Assembly: GCA_004299235.1 (NCBI GenBank)
Contig: SCQL01000029.1
Span: 1 to 64,000, forward strand
From: a bacterium
GTDB taxonomy: Bacteria; Chloroflexota; Dormibacteria; Dormibacterales; Dormibacteraceae
Direction of reading: 5' to 3'
Length of the DNA: 64,000 nucleotides
Part shown: positions 4,235 through 63,332 of the stretch, piece by piece
Layout: every line of letters starts with the position of its first letter
Numbering within the stretch: the stretch's first letter is position 1
The notes under the pieces: generated by a model
The model's database searches: none
The model's input: only the letters and a program-made list of their open reading frames with translations
What the model was told of the DNA's origin: nothing
Position numbers and translations under genes: made by a program

Positions 4235-4450
4235 ATGTGCCGGAGCATCAAGACGCTGCGCCATGCGGATGTCGTCGCGACCGATGAGGAGATCCGCGCG
4301 GCGGCGCGGCAGTTCGTGCGCAAGGTGAGCGGGTTCCGCGAGCCGTCGGGCAGACACCAGGAGGCATTCGAGGGCGCGGTCGACGAGATCGCGATCGCCT
4401 CCCAGCGCCTGCTGGAAAGCATCTCTGGGAACCTGTCCAGGCGATCTTAA
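4235..4450 (+). CDS. DUF2277 family protein
   Basis: 71 aa starting MCRSIKTLR, the invariant opening of DUF2277 proteins, followed by the family motifs ATDEEIRAAARQFVRKVSG and ending with an amphipathic helix (VDEIAIASQRLL). The frame is open upstream of 4235, but those codons are not conserved-looking. A GGAGGTGG lies about 14 bases upstream of this ATG. Small cytosolic helical protein of unknown function. Its stop codon lies inside a 93-bp dispersed repeat. Confidence 0.85.
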   Translation: MCRSIKTLRHADVVATDEEIRAAARQFVRKVSGFREPSGRHQEAFEGAVDEIAIASQRLLESISGNLSRRS

Positions 4451-4538
4451 CGACCTGGGTTGACGCCCCCCATACGCTGGTCTCGGCTGGCCGGCGGGGG
4501 AGGGACGGCCTGGTGGAGGAGGGAGGGCCCTCGGCGAG
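4446..4538. repeat. 93-bp dispersed repeat, copy A (intergenic)
   Basis: Matches copy B at 21591-21683 over exactly 93 bases with about 8 mismatches, all in the first half; the second half is identical. Copy A starts with the TAA stop region of the DUF2277 gene and ends just before the 3' end of mutM. It is rich in purine-strand GGGAGGG motifs and contains the palindrome GAGGGCCCTC. Confidence 0.9.
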
Positions 4539-4550
4539 GAGCGCTCGCGG

Positions 4551-5378
4551 TTAGAGCTGACAGCCTCGGCAGAAGTTCAAGGGCTCCCGGTTCGAGCCGA
4601 GTTGGCTGATCCGGTGCCCGCAGCGCGGGCAGGTCTTGCCGCCTTTCATGTGGACCGCCAGGAACGACCGATCCTGCTTCGACTCCTCGTAGGCCGGGTT
4701 GGCGAGGATGGCCTCAACCGCACGCCGTAAAACCGCTGGTATTGCCGCGAACAGGGCCTCTTCGTCGGCCGGCTTGAGTGATGCCCGGCGCCGCAGCGGC
4801 AGCAGGCGGGCCTCGAACAGGATCTCGTCCGAATAGGCGTTGCCGACCCCGGCCAGGAACTCCTGGTTGCGCAGGAGGTCCTTCAGCTCGTCGCGAAACC
4901 GCCGCAGGCGCTTGCGGAAGACGTCGATGCCCATGTCGGGAAGGGAGTCGGCCTCGGGTCCCAGCAGCGCCCAGCCGGGGACCTCACGCTCCAGGTCGGA
5001 CACCCAGTAGATCCGGCCCATGTCGCGGAAGTCCAGATAGCGCAGCTCACGCCGCCCCTCGATCCTGATGGTGAACACCTCGGTGGCGGGCACCGGTGCC
5101 TCGCCGTCGGCCATCTGGAACCTGCCGCCGAGCATGGGGTTGATCACCAGGCAGCGCGGCGACCCGCCGCCGCCGAGCTCGGTGGCGAACACGAGATGCT
5201 TGCCGCGCCGCGTGAGTGAAGCGATCCGCCGCGCCGGCAGCTCCCGGGCGAAGTTTTCGACCGGGTAGCGCAGCATGTGCGCCTTTTTCGGGTTGACTGA
5301 CGCGGCCGTGATCAGCTTCCCCTCGAGTCGGGGACCCAACCGGACGCGGACCGCCTCCAGCTCGGGAAGCTCGGGCAT
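4551..5378 (-). CDS. mutM: formamidopyrimidine-DNA glycosylase (Fpg/MutM)
   Basis: 275 aa, usual length. After Met removal the N-terminus is PELPELEAV, supplying the catalytic proline and Glu. Lys60 in RRGKHLV, the helix-two-turn-helix with LLRNQEFLAGVGNAYSDEI, and a C-terminal zinc finger (Cys250, Cys253, Cys270, Cys273) are all visible. It excises oxidised purines such as 8-oxoguanine and nicks the abasic site. The gene is convergent with DUF2277 across the 93-bp repeat and divergent from the ClpB-like gene. Confidence 0.95.
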   Translation of the reverse strand: MPELPELEAVRVRLGPRLEGKLITAASVNPKKAHMLRYPVENFARELPARRIASLTRRGKHLVFATELGGGGSPRCLVINPMLGGRFQMADGEAPVPATEVFTIRIEGRRELRYLDFRDMGRIYWVSDLEREVPGWALLGPEADSLPDMGIDVFRKRLRRFRDELKDLLRNQEFLAGVGNAYSDEILFEARLLPLRRRASLKPADEEALFAAIPAVLRRAVEAILANPAYEESKQDRSFLAVHMKGGKTCPRCGHRISQLGSNREPLNFCRGCQL

Positions 5379-20840: not shown

Positions 20841-23800
20841 CTAACGGTAATCGTGCGAGCGCTGCTGGGGCCGGGGCACGCCCCGGAGCGCTTCGATGTG
20901 GCTCGCGAGCACCGACCAGACACCATCTTGGCGCTGCATCACGCCGTCGATGATCAAGATCGGTTGGCGGTTAGCGATGTGGCGGTAGCGGTCGTAGACG
21001 TCGGGCTTGATCGTGACGTTGACCTGGCCGAACTCGTCCTCGAGGGTGAAGAAGCGGATCTTCTTCGCGGTCGAGGGCGCCTGGCGGGTGATCACCAACC
21101 CGGCCACTCGCACCCTGTGGCGGTCGGGGATCGACGGCAGCTGGTTGCTCTCGAGGGCGCCCATCGCTCGGAGTCGGTCGCGGCAGAAGTGGATGAGGTG
21201 GTGGCCGGTGGAGAGGTCTGAGATTCGGTACTCGAGCTGGTTGGCGTCGAACTCGTCGACCGCTGGCAGGTCGGGAGCGGTGCCGTTCAGTCGCAGCTCG
21301 GCTTGGGTCCCAAGGCCCCGGCGCAGACCGTGGCCGTGCCATCGTTCCTGCCAGCCCCACAGGAGCTTGCGCCGGGGTTGGCGGAGGGCATCGAAGGCGC
21401 CGACCATGACGAGGTTGCGGACCGCGCGAGGGCCGATGGGTCCGCCGCGGAGGCGGTTCAAAAAATCGTCGAAGGAGCTGTAAGGGCCGGCGCGCCGGCG
21501 CTCGGCGACGATCGCGTTGCGGCCGTCCTCGCCCAGGTCGCGGACGTAGTTGAGGCCGATGCGCATGGCGTGGGTCATGGCCGCCTGCGCCTTAACCGCC
21601 TGGGTTGACGCGACCGATACGCTGATTTCGGTTGGCCGGCGGGGGAGGGACGGCCTGGTGGAGGAGGGAGGGCCCTCGGCGAGCTGTGGCTTGGTTGGGG
21701 AGAGGGCCAGGGGTTCGGGGAGGCATCTTGCGTACGAACGGTTGACGTCCACCGGCAGCACCTTCACTCCGTGGCGCTTCAGGTCCTCGACCAGCACGCT
21801 GGGGTGGTAGAAGCCCATCGGCTGGTGGTTCAGGAGGCCGCAGCCGAACTCGACCGGATAATTGAGCTTGAGCCACGCCGTCTCGTAGGTCGTGCGCGCG
21901 AAGGCGGCGGCATGCGAGCGGCAAAAGCCATAGACGGCGAAGCCCTGCACGGCGGCGAAGAGCTGGTCCGCGACCTCGCGCGGCACGCTGTTGGCGAGGC
22001 AGCCGTTGATGAAATCACCCTCCAGCGAAGACATCTCGACGCGGTTGAGGTGGCGGGTCATCGCGCGCCGGAAGCCGTCCGCCTGGCTGGGCGTCATGCC
22101 CGCGACCCGCATGGCGATCTCGATGATCTGCTCCTGGTAGAGAATCACGCCGAGCGTGTCCTTGAGGACGGGCTCGAGCAGCGGATGCGCGTAGATCACC
22201 GGCTCGCGGCCCTGCTTGCGCCGGATGTAGGGATGGACGGCATTGCCCTGGATCGGACCGGGCCGGATGATCGCGACCTCGACCACCAGATCGTTGAAGC
22301 TCTGCGGCCGGGTGCGCGGGAGGGTCTGCATCTGGGCACGCGACTCGATCTGGAAGACGCCGATGGTGTCCGCCTCGCTGCACATCTCGAACACCTTCGG
22401 ATCGTCCAGCGGCAGCCGGTCGAGGTCTGGGCGCGTGCCGGTGGTGTCTTGGATGAGGTCCAGGGTCTCGGCCACGACCGAAAGCGTGCGCAGACCGAGC
22501 AGGTCCACCTTGATCAGGCCCAGGTCCTCGACGTCGTCCTTGTTGAACTGGACGACCCGGCGCCCTTCCATCGTGGCCGGCTCGACCGGCACGATGTCGA
22601 CCAGCGGCTCGCCGGTGACCAGCATCCCGCCCACGTGGATCGAGAGGTGCCGCGGGAATTCGATGACCTCCCGGCACAGCTCCAGGAACTGCTGCCAGCT
22701 CTGGGGACGCATATCCGCCGGCGGCGGCATCGCGCCGGTCATCGAATCCTCGACGCCTTCCGTGGGGTTTCCAGGCGGCGTCAACATCTCGCCTGGGGCC
22801 GGCCATCGGTCCACGCCCTTGGCGAGCCGGTCGAGCAGCTCGGCCGAGAAGCCCAGCGCCTTGCCCACCTGCCGGATCGCCATGCGCGGCTGGAAGGTGA
22901 CCACGTTGCACACCATCCCGGTCCGCTCCCAGCCGTACTTGTCGTAGACGTACTGGATCACCTGCTCGCGGTGCTTGGTCGAGAAGTCGATGTCGATGTC
23001 CGGCGTGCTCGTCATCTCCTCGTGCAGGAAGCGCTCGAAGAGGAGGTTGTGCTCGATGGGGTCGACGCGCGTGATGCCGAGCACGTAGGCGACGATCGAG
23101 TCGGCGGCCGAGCCGCGGCCCTGGCCGGGGACGCCGTGCTCACGCGCGAAACGCATGAGGTCCCAGTTGATGAGGAAGAACTCGGCGAGCCCGGTCTTCT
23201 CGATGACCTCGAGCTCGCGTTGGAGCCGGCGGGCCACCTCGGGCGTGATCGGCCTGTAGCGCTCTCGAACGCCTTCGAAGCAGAGCTTGTAGAGAAACGA
23301 GAAAGGGGTTTCGCCCGCGGGCACCGGGTAGCCCGGGAAGCGCACCTTGCGGAAATCGAGCTCGACAGCACACTCCTGCGCGATGTCCCACGGCGCCGCC
23401 AGCGCCTCGGCGTGGCCTTTGAAGAGCGGGCGCATCTCATCGCCTGCCTTCAGGTGATGCTCGGCGTTGGGGAAGAGGTGCGGCCGCGCCCCGTCCAGGG
23501 TGGTGCGGTGGCGGATCGCGACCAGCACGTCGTGGAGGCGGCGCCGCTCAGGGACGTGGTAGTGGACCTGGTTGGTGGCAACGACGGCGGCCCCGCACCG
23601 CTTCGCCATCGACGCCCGGCCCTCGAGCACCCATGGGTCCTCAGGGCGAAGGTGGTGGTGGAGCTCGCTGAAAACGCTCTCGTTGCCGAGCGCCTCCTGG
23701 AGCTCGCGCAGGCGCCGTTCATCGTCGGTGGCGCTGAGATAGAAGAGGTCGCCCTTGTGCTCGGCGACCCTGGTGAGCGTCGCGCGCGCCTCGCCTTTCG

Positions 23801-24101
23801 GTTGATCGGCGTGAGCAAGGCTCAGGAGCCGGCAGAGGTTGGAGTAACCGCGCAGGTTGCGGGCGATGACCACCGTCTCCTGGCCATCGACCTCCAGCGC
23901 CGTGCCGATGAGCGGCTTGACCCCGAGCTTGCGGCAGGCCTGGAGGAACTTCACCGCGCCATAGACCCCGCCGCGATCGGTGATCGCGAGCGCGGGCATC
24001 TCGAGCTCGGCGGCGCGCGCCGCCAGCTCGGCGGGATGCGAGCCGCCATCGAGGAAGGAGAAGTTGGAGTGGCAGTGCAGCTCGACGTAGGGCGCGCGCA
24101 T
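20841..24101 (-). CDS. dnaE2: error-prone DNA polymerase III alpha subunit DnaE2
   Basis: 1086 aa from ATG 24101 (MRAPYVELHCHSNFSFLDGG). The PHP domain is N-terminal. The Pol III alpha palm carries GRGSAADSIVAYVLGITRVD and the catalytic PDIDIDF. The helix-hairpin-helix and OB-fold (VRVAGLVITRQAPSTAKKIR) are C-terminal. It replicates across lesions as part of the ImuA-ImuB-DnaE2 mutasome. Oddity: a 31-residue segment (LAEGPPSSTRPSLPRR through TQAVK) after VDVNRSYARCLPEP is encoded entirely by a copy of the 93-bp dispersed repeat. It is preserved in frame, and the conserved fold resumes just afterwards with AMRIGLNYVRDLGEDG. Confidence 0.95.
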   Translation of the reverse strand: MRAPYVELHCHSNFSFLDGGSHPAELAARAAELEMPALAITDRGGVYGAVKFLQACRKLGVKPLIGTALEVDGQETVVIARNLRGYSNLCRLLSLAHADQPKGEARATLTRVAEHKGDLFYLSATDDERRLRELQEALGNESVFSELHHHLRPEDPWVLEGRASMAKRCGAAVVATNQVHYHVPERRRLHDVLVAIRHRTTLDGARPHLFPNAEHHLKAGDEMRPLFKGHAEALAAPWDIAQECAVELDFRKVRFPGYPVPAGETPFSFLYKLCFEGVRERYRPITPEVARRLQRELEVIEKTGLAEFFLINWDLMRFAREHGVPGQGRGSAADSIVAYVLGITRVDPIEHNLLFERFLHEEMTSTPDIDIDFSTKHREQVIQYVYDKYGWERTGMVCNVVTFQPRMAIRQVGKALGFSAELLDRLAKGVDRWPAPGEMLTPPGNPTEGVEDSMTGAMPPPADMRPQSWQQFLELCREVIEFPRHLSIHVGGMLVTGEPLVDIVPVEPATMEGRRVVQFNKDDVEDLGLIKVDLLGLRTLSVVAETLDLIQDTTGTRPDLDRLPLDDPKVFEMCSEADTIGVFQIESRAQMQTLPRTRPQSFNDLVVEVAIIRPGPIQGNAVHPYIRRKQGREPVIYAHPLLEPVLKDTLGVILYQEQIIEIAMRVAGMTPSQADGFRRAMTRHLNRVEMSSLEGDFINGCLANSVPREVADQLFAAVQGFAVYGFCRSHAAAFARTTYETAWLKLNYPVEFGCGLLNHQPMGFYHPSVLVEDLKRHGVKVLPVDVNRSYARCLPEPLALSPTKPQLAEGPPSSTRPSLPRRPTEISVSVASTQAVKAQAAMTHAMRIGLNYVRDLGEDGRNAIVAERRRAGPYSSFDDFLNRLRGGPIGPRAVRNLVMVGAFDALRQPRRKLLWGWQERWHGHGLRRGLGTQAELRLNGTAPDLPAVDEFDANQLEYRISDLSTGHHLIHFCRDRLRAMGALESNQLPSIPDRHRVRVAGLVITRQAPSTAKKIRFFTLEDEFGQVNVTIKPDVYDRYRHIANRQPILIIDGVMQRQDGVWSVLASHIEALRGVPRPQQRSHDYR
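21591..21683. repeat. 93-bp dispersed repeat, copy B, inside dnaE2
   Basis: About 91 percent identical to copy A at 4446-4538, same length and same orientation on the + strand. It encodes exactly 31 codons of dnaE2 on the minus strand with no stop codon, so it behaves like a protein-tolerated mobile repeat. The last 50 or so bases are identical between copies. Confidence 0.9.
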
Positions 24102-62603: not shown

Positions 62604-62711
62604 GTGGGGGTTTACACGTCCGAGGCGATGGAGCCCCTCGCATCTCCAAGGGGAGGGCATTCGTTAACAGGCTGGGTTGTTCGCCCATTCGGGCAGTCAT
62701 AAGGTCGAGCC

Positions 62712-63332
62712 GTGATGAGGCGGTGGTTGGTCGCTCTTGCGGCTCTGACGATCGGTGGAGGGGTCAGCGCGGCGTTGCTGGTCCTCGCCAATCCCGCGCG
62801 CGACATGACTGACGTCTACGTGGCGGCGCGCGACGTGCCGGCGGGAGCGGTGCTGGGCGCCGGGGTGATCGCGCTCGAACGGATCCACGTCACCGGCGGC
62901 CGTGCGCTGCTGTTCACGCGCGGTGACGAGTCGAAGCTGGTCGGCCTGCAGACCACTCACGACCTCCTGACGGGCCAGCTCATCCAGCGCAGCGACGTTG
63001 GGGAGGCGGGTGTGATCGCCGACCGCCGGCTGGTGTTCGTGCCGGTCAAGGAGGCGCCGCCGGCGACGCCCGGTTCGAAGGTCGACCTGCTGGTCGTCGG
63101 CGGGGCGCCCGACCACCCGTCGGTCACTCCCTTCGCACTCGCTGTCGAGGTGAGGGCTACTGTCGCCGGAGGCTTGGTGGTCGTCGTCGCGTCCAGACAG
63201 GCCGCCGCCTTCGTGTATGCGGCAAGCAACATGCATCTCGCCGCGGTGATCGCCGAACCTGGCGCGGCGGATGGCTCTGAGGAATCGGTCTCCACCCCGG
63301 AGCAGGCGATGGCGGTGGCCGGTCAGCGGTGA
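62712..63332 (+). CDS. cpaB: CpaB-like SAF-domain pilus assembly protein
   Basis: 206 aa from GTG 62712 (ATG 62715 also possible). Signal anchor MRRWLVALAALTIGGGVSAALLVLAN, then a SAF domain VYVAARDVPAGAVLGAGVIALE...LVGLQTTHDLLTGQLIQRSDV and a C-terminal RcpC-like part. CpaB/RcpC proteins assist Flp/Tad pilus secretion through the outer layers. First gene of the Tad operon that continues off the right edge. Confidence 0.82.
   Translation: MMRRWLVALAALTIGGGVSAALLVLANPARDMTDVYVAARDVPAGAVLGAGVIALERIHVTGGRALLFTRGDESKLVGLQTTHDLLTGQLIQRSDVGEAGVIADRRLVFVPVKEAPPATPGSKVDLLVVGGAPDHPSVTPFALAVEVRATVAGGLVVVVASRQAAAFVYAASNMHLAAVIAEPGAADGSEESVSTPEQAMAVAGQR

Follow-up and report, generated by a model that had tools for sequence, protein, structure and literature searches.

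A 93-nt repeat beside mutM and inside dnaE2

The window, meaning the whole 64,000-nt stretch that was analysed, belongs to a Dormibacterota MAG of 2.87 Mb and holds exactly two copies of a 93-nt repeat. A repeat search placed them at 4446–4538 and 21591–21683, both on the plus strand and 91% identical; among repeats of 40 nt or longer, the window has no other pair as similar. The differences cluster in the first half, where identity is 0.83, compared with 0.96 in the second. Both the locations and the higher identity of the second half had been described in an earlier sequence-only reading, and these descriptions hold.

The first copy lies between a gene named DUF2277 in that reading (4235–4450, plus strand) and mutM, which encodes formamidopyrimidine-DNA glycosylase (4551–5378, minus strand) and is convergent to the element. 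It had been described as intergenic; the site is right, but the copy overlaps the end of the DUF2277 gene, whose stop codon (TAA, 4448–4450) it provides. Its box CTTAACGACCTGGGTTG occupies 4446–4462 and its hairpin 4489–4510, with the loop GGGGGAGGG at 4496–4504. The second copy lies within dnaE2 (20841–24098, minus strand), which encodes an error-prone DNA polymerase (PRK05672), and runs antisense to it. It comprises the box CTTAACCGCCTGGGTTG (21591–21607), a -10-like TACGCT (21618–21623), a hairpin (21634–21655) formed by a GGCCG arm, a loop with GGGGGAGGG (21641–21649) and a CGGCC arm, and the conserved 3' block GGGAGGGCCC (21666–21675). In both copies the hairpin is assigned from the sequence together with covariation over 25 sites. 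Read from the minus strand, the dnaE2 copy is in frame and stop-free, as had been claimed, and encodes residues 806–836.

Gene conversion from the dnaE2 copy to the mutM-side copy would be the simplest reading of the near-identical second halves, because the mutM-side half is closer to copies at the dnaE2 site. Its identity is 0.90 to the dnaE2-site copy of genome G024 and at most 0.77 to the mutM-site copies of relatives.

Anatomy and distribution of the element family

The repeat belongs to an element family of about 105 bp that is found in seven to eight genera, all from a single Dormibacterota family, at 1–19 copies per genome. Copies were counted with a sequence profile built after aligning 41 of them; BLAST undercounted, recovering three copies in this genome and pieces in relatives. 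At E ≤ 0.01 the profile matches this genome nine times, and about eight of these matches are strong, so that the genome-wide count proposed earlier extends well past the two copies in the window. Relatives hold 1–17 copies each, rising to as many as 19 when the cut-off is relaxed. Among 301 genomes sampled across the phylum, no copy was detected in those of other families. No Rfam covariance model matched at E up to 1, and a known RNA family was rejected on this ground. The element is an old, clade-specific and previously uncatalogued DNA element of soil Dormibacterota, present in roughly ten copies per genome.

Side by side, the copies display a common order: CTTAACAGGCWGGGTTG, a spacer, TAnnnT, about 8 nt, GGTGTG, a stem arm, the loop GGGGGNGGG, the second stem arm, about 10 nt and the downstream block GGGNGGGCCC. 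The element has a TTAACAGSCWGGGTTG box, and the TAnnnT hexamer lies 17 nt after TTGnnn, ahead of the covarying hairpin. When each of 27 sites is represented by a single copy, information content is 1–2 bits at most positions of the box and at three of the -10, compared with mostly 0.0–0.3 in the spacer. Over 94 copies, the spacer preceding TAnnnT measures 17 nt in 56, 18 in 4 and 7 in 15. The spacer-7 copies (S-type, as opposed to the 17-nt L-type) occur at three unrelated sites, namely mutM, dnaE2 and site 4. Both window copies are S-type, with a spacer 10 bp too short (7 nt after TTGnnn in the dnaE2 copy), and their promoters may therefore be inactive.

Complementarity of the hairpin arms at 25 sites scores 4.68; shuffling the arms lowers it to 2.86, and none of 300 draws overlaps the observed value. 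The supported stem length is only 5–8 bp. Arm shuffling replaced single-sequence folding, which was uninformative (z mostly near 0). A second hairpin or terminator after GGGCCC received no support (4.28 versus 4.14 shuffled); T-runs follow the hairpin at some sites only, and there is no consistent terminator. The element had been likened to Rickettsia palindromic elements (RPEs), but a palindrome spanning the whole element, as in RPEs, is not found here. Instead, its anatomy is that of a promoter and a hairpin, and it has no reading frame of its own.

The loop GGGGGNGGG and the 3' block GGGNGGGCCC share the same middle base in 87 of the 88 parsed copies (A/A in 78, T/T in 7, C/C in 2), and the single exception (L214) is a parsing error, its sequence reading A in both blocks. 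This coupling runs by identity, not complementarity. The idea that another base varies along with these two, examined by eye, was rejected. A TTCAnT-like -10 accompanies most of the T/T pairs; T/T is thus partly a subfamily, and inheritance or conversion may account for the identity coupling. The hairpin loop is longer in three copies, and in two of these the extension is an insertion of an unrelated 46-nt repeat. This separate repeat (GGGGGCAATCAGTAGGTCACATCCTTATCGCCG..GCGCGCAGG) sits in the GGGGG/AGGG loop of the element (L010:1551–1620 and L233:5958–6004) and has at least 22 copies in genome G020 and 10 in G010.

When copies were clustered by their conserved flanking genes, 19 sites common to at least two genomes held 81 of the 95 copies; the clustering is by single linkage and may have wrongly merged a few, site 17 having two copies of one genome. 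Some element sites occur in a single genome only, and every strong copy of this genome occupies a site shared with other genomes. Cross-genus identity at the same site (0.72) is little above that between unrelated sites (0.70), so that vertical descent is argued from position and not from sequence. The sequence-only reading had suggested fairly recent mobility; the shared sites of all strong copies here and a dnaE2 insertion that appears to predate the split of at least five genera speak against it. The neighbouring genes are unrelated from site to site and include mutM as well as one gene resembling endonuclease III and another resembling AlkA; except for mutM, they were named by sequence alone. 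Upstream genes frequently terminate in the element's own TAA. By our own reading of the contexts, about 11 of the 18 sites other than dnaE2 have a convergent gene as their next conserved neighbour downstream, and some copies stand in front of genes for a cysteine desulfurase, a lipoprotein or transporters.

A Y1 (RAYT-type) transposase (PF01797) was not found in six genomes, in a search whose control was detected, and a REP/RAYT element was rejected on this ground. Neither terminal inverted repeats nor target duplications were seen by eye in the aligned copies.

The insertion in the DnaE2 linker

The in-frame copy sits between the motifs ..VNRS.RCLPE and HAMRIGLNYVRDLG. In the alignment, distant DnaE2 proteins run almost straight from VN.S to GFNYV, in agreement with the earlier statement that family members pass nearly directly between these motifs. 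The insert had been described as 93 bp long; the repeat does lie there in frame, but the whole dnaE2-specific insert is longer, at about 46 residues (PLALSP..TQAVKAQAAMT). From HPSVLVEDL to GFNYV, proteins outside this family mostly have 45–55 residues, compared with 49 to 129 in the element-bearing clade.

A dnaE2 tree built with the linker left out is compatible with a single gain, in the ancestor shared by 25 rows, plus several losses or replacements, with six changes needed, and the tree alone cannot separate gain from loss. Three older branches (L096, L097 and L099) have dnaE2 without the element, though their genomes hold it elsewhere. The dnaE2 copies of genera g2, g6 and g11 retain the intact 17-nt spacing. 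The pattern fits a single gain before the split of at least five genera, followed by later losses.

The AlphaFold model gives a pLDDT under 50 at residues 800–839, between strands at 793–796 and 843–846. The insert is accordingly predicted to form a disordered loop between two strands, consistent with the surface loop proposed at the outset. The frame used by dnaE2 is open in 13 of 13 dnaE2 copies, compared with 29 of 78 copies elsewhere and roughly one in two shuffled sequences. Inspection of about 95 copies revealed dnaE2 as the only gene that clearly carries one within it.

Other repeat-like inserts have also entered this linker: ASAGTRGIPEPLKP tandem units (L087, L105, L106 and L121), SPLAGEVGGEAAGWG (L091) and NAPFMG..LLTP (L084, L092 and L093). 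In this clade the linker seems to be a place where insertions are tolerated. Elsewhere in the window DnaE2, residues 431–448 (PAPGEMLTPPGNPTEG) form a second low-confidence stretch that is missing from the alignment consensus and is possibly another small insertion.

Solo boxes and possible functions

The same box, with identical spacing but with the hairpin absent, directly precedes a set of genes. The pattern TTAACNRSCWGGNT, 22 nt, TANNNT has 48 matches in 12 genomes, against none for the reversed control, and all but one (before parA in g7) fall in element-bearing genera. A solo box precedes ssb in all six element-bearing genomes tested. Other genes behind solo boxes, recognised through Pfam, are comEA (SLBB plus HHH_3), comM/yifB (ChlI), those for a PLD-family and a YgjP-like protein, and one with a weak PrgI match; pilus or transfer genes are among the genes preceded in this way. 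Behind comEA comes comEC (PF03772), the ends of the two overlapping. In the window, a solo box with a -10 (GTTAACAGGCTGGGTTG..TAAGGT; 62663–62705, plus strand) and no hairpin precedes a CpaB-like gene that starts at 62712 or 62715, with a weak ChapFlgA (SAF-type) match (promoter plus gene, 62663–63332). Since the solo-box genes are DNA-uptake and transfer genes, they likely constitute a competence regulon, as judged from gene content. An SOS (LexA) operator was ruled out: no box with up to 4 substitutions occurs within 400 bp upstream of the LexA HTH gene in five genomes.

The best explanation, which we hold with moderate confidence, is an old element that combines a competence-class promoter with a hairpin, has one copy in dnaE2 and is modelled most readily as a csRNA-like family of small-RNA genes. 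The element would join a competence-type promoter (TTAACAGSCWGGGTT, 22 nt, TAnnnT) to a hairpin that lies near the transcript's predicted 5' end and has a G-rich loop, with another G-rich block besides. Insertion of one copy into the dnaE2 linker, in antisense orientation, most likely took place in the common ancestor of five genera; an uninterrupted frame and the position of the linker in a surface loop would explain why the gene tolerated it. Copies with the intact 17-nt spacer would be expressed along with the competence regulon and yield redundant small RNAs. For these L-type copies such expression, which is drawn by analogy, is quite conceivable but short of probable. Conservation of the box and -10 across 27 sites while the spacer varies counts for the model, as do the arm complementarity of the hairpin, the many shared sites, the identical promoter pattern ahead of competence genes, the dnaE2 tree and the predicted disordered loop, and the convergent orientation of the downstream gene at most non-dnaE2 sites suits a stand-alone RNA. 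The persistence of S-type copies despite their broken promoter spacing counts against it, as do the absence of a consistent terminator and the barely raised identity of same-site copies across genera, and copies ahead of genes could be ordinary promoters.

The closest known parallel is offered by the csRNAs of the CiaR regulon in streptococci, which were discovered via the regulator's promoter in intergenic regions and then a terminator (PMC3091779) and which act on competence (PMC4507080). Both families comprise several intergenic units per genome, each with a regulon promoter, and both are linked to competence (PMC3091779, PMC4507080). L-type elements share box, 17-nt spacing and -10 with the competence genes, whereas S-type elements do not, and arm covariation indicates a conserved RNA structure. 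The two differ in that sequence, box and phylum are unrelated, the element shows no consistent terminator, and one element copy lies in a coding gene.

A more specific form of the proposal remains tentative, namely a small-RNA family in an undescribed competence regulon, with a member that lies antisense in dnaE2 and encodes part of it, and with two GGGNGGG blocks whose middle base is obligately the same. The box and -10 provide a sequence handle on an apparent natural-competence regulon in a mostly uncultured phylum, and the repeat adds an element family absent from Rfam. A regulatory-type element would have been kept in a conserved polymerase gene across genera, the same DNA serving as protein linker and perhaps as antisense unit.

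The main rival is a serious one, possible if on the unlikely side. The element would be a non-autonomous mobile promoter, selfish or neutral, that spread with its hairpin and whose copies are kept alike by conversion, the dnaE2 location being incidental. The occurrence of the spacer-7 subfamily at three unrelated sites, the conversion traces, the mixed contexts and the single-genome sites are all consistent with this. Yet the majority of sites are shared between genera, the motif and stem are retained while the remainder is saturated, and neither terminal inverted repeats nor, in six genomes, a Y1 transposase was seen. Mobile or propagated promoters place one promoter sequence at many unrelated genome positions. 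The element does likewise, but it carries a covarying hairpin and mostly occupies positions that different genera have in common. Correia/NEMIS elements of Neisseria, like this one, are dispersed, measure about 105–155 bp and carry putative promoters; their ends are 24-bp terminal inverted repeats and they show target duplications (PMC2229807), of which none were seen here by eye.

Mycobacterial interspersed repetitive units are short repeats that often provide the stop codon of the upstream gene, a feature shared with the element. They run in the same direction within operons and, unlike the element, have no competence-type promoter.

A DNA-level site, G-quadruplex-forming or protein-binding and active in chromosome organisation or recombination, would require no RNA gene, and is improbable. 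Four conserved G-tracts and the identical middle base of loop and 3' block in every parsed copy favour it, but such a site needs neither a promoter signature with fixed 17-nt spacing nor arm covariation. Genome G005, which keeps solo promoters and one full element only, also adds to the case for it: its dnaE2 (L294) and mutM (L301) sites both retain nothing but the 17-nt box CTTAACNGGCWGGGTTG and break off at the same point on the right, which may reflect either precise excision or chance.

RPEs form long stem-loops and lie in frame within 19 genes (Ogata et al. 2000, reviewed in PMC2229807). They share with the element a size of about 100 bp and an occurrence both intergenic and, tolerated, in frame in a conserved protein gene (PMC2229807). 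The parallel drawn earlier survives in that an in-frame insertion is tolerated, but not beyond it, with dnaE2 the only gene clearly hit, a frame not generally open, and a promoter with a short hairpin. An RPE-like selfish repeat specialised for in-frame insertion into proteins, suggested by one in-frame copy and the similar size, is thus very improbable and largely refuted. Finally, the sequence-only reading had allowed that dnaE2 orthologues sharing the segment would make the intergenic copy a dnaE2 fragment. Such sharing does hold in part, within one family, and the 91% identity and probable conversion tract could point the same way, but the idea is refuted by some 25 other sites that hold the element and by older-branching relatives that lack it in dnaE2 and have it elsewhere, mutM included. 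Several element sites lie beside DNA-repair genes (mutM, endonuclease III-like and AlkA-like, plus dnaE2 itself), possibly by chance.
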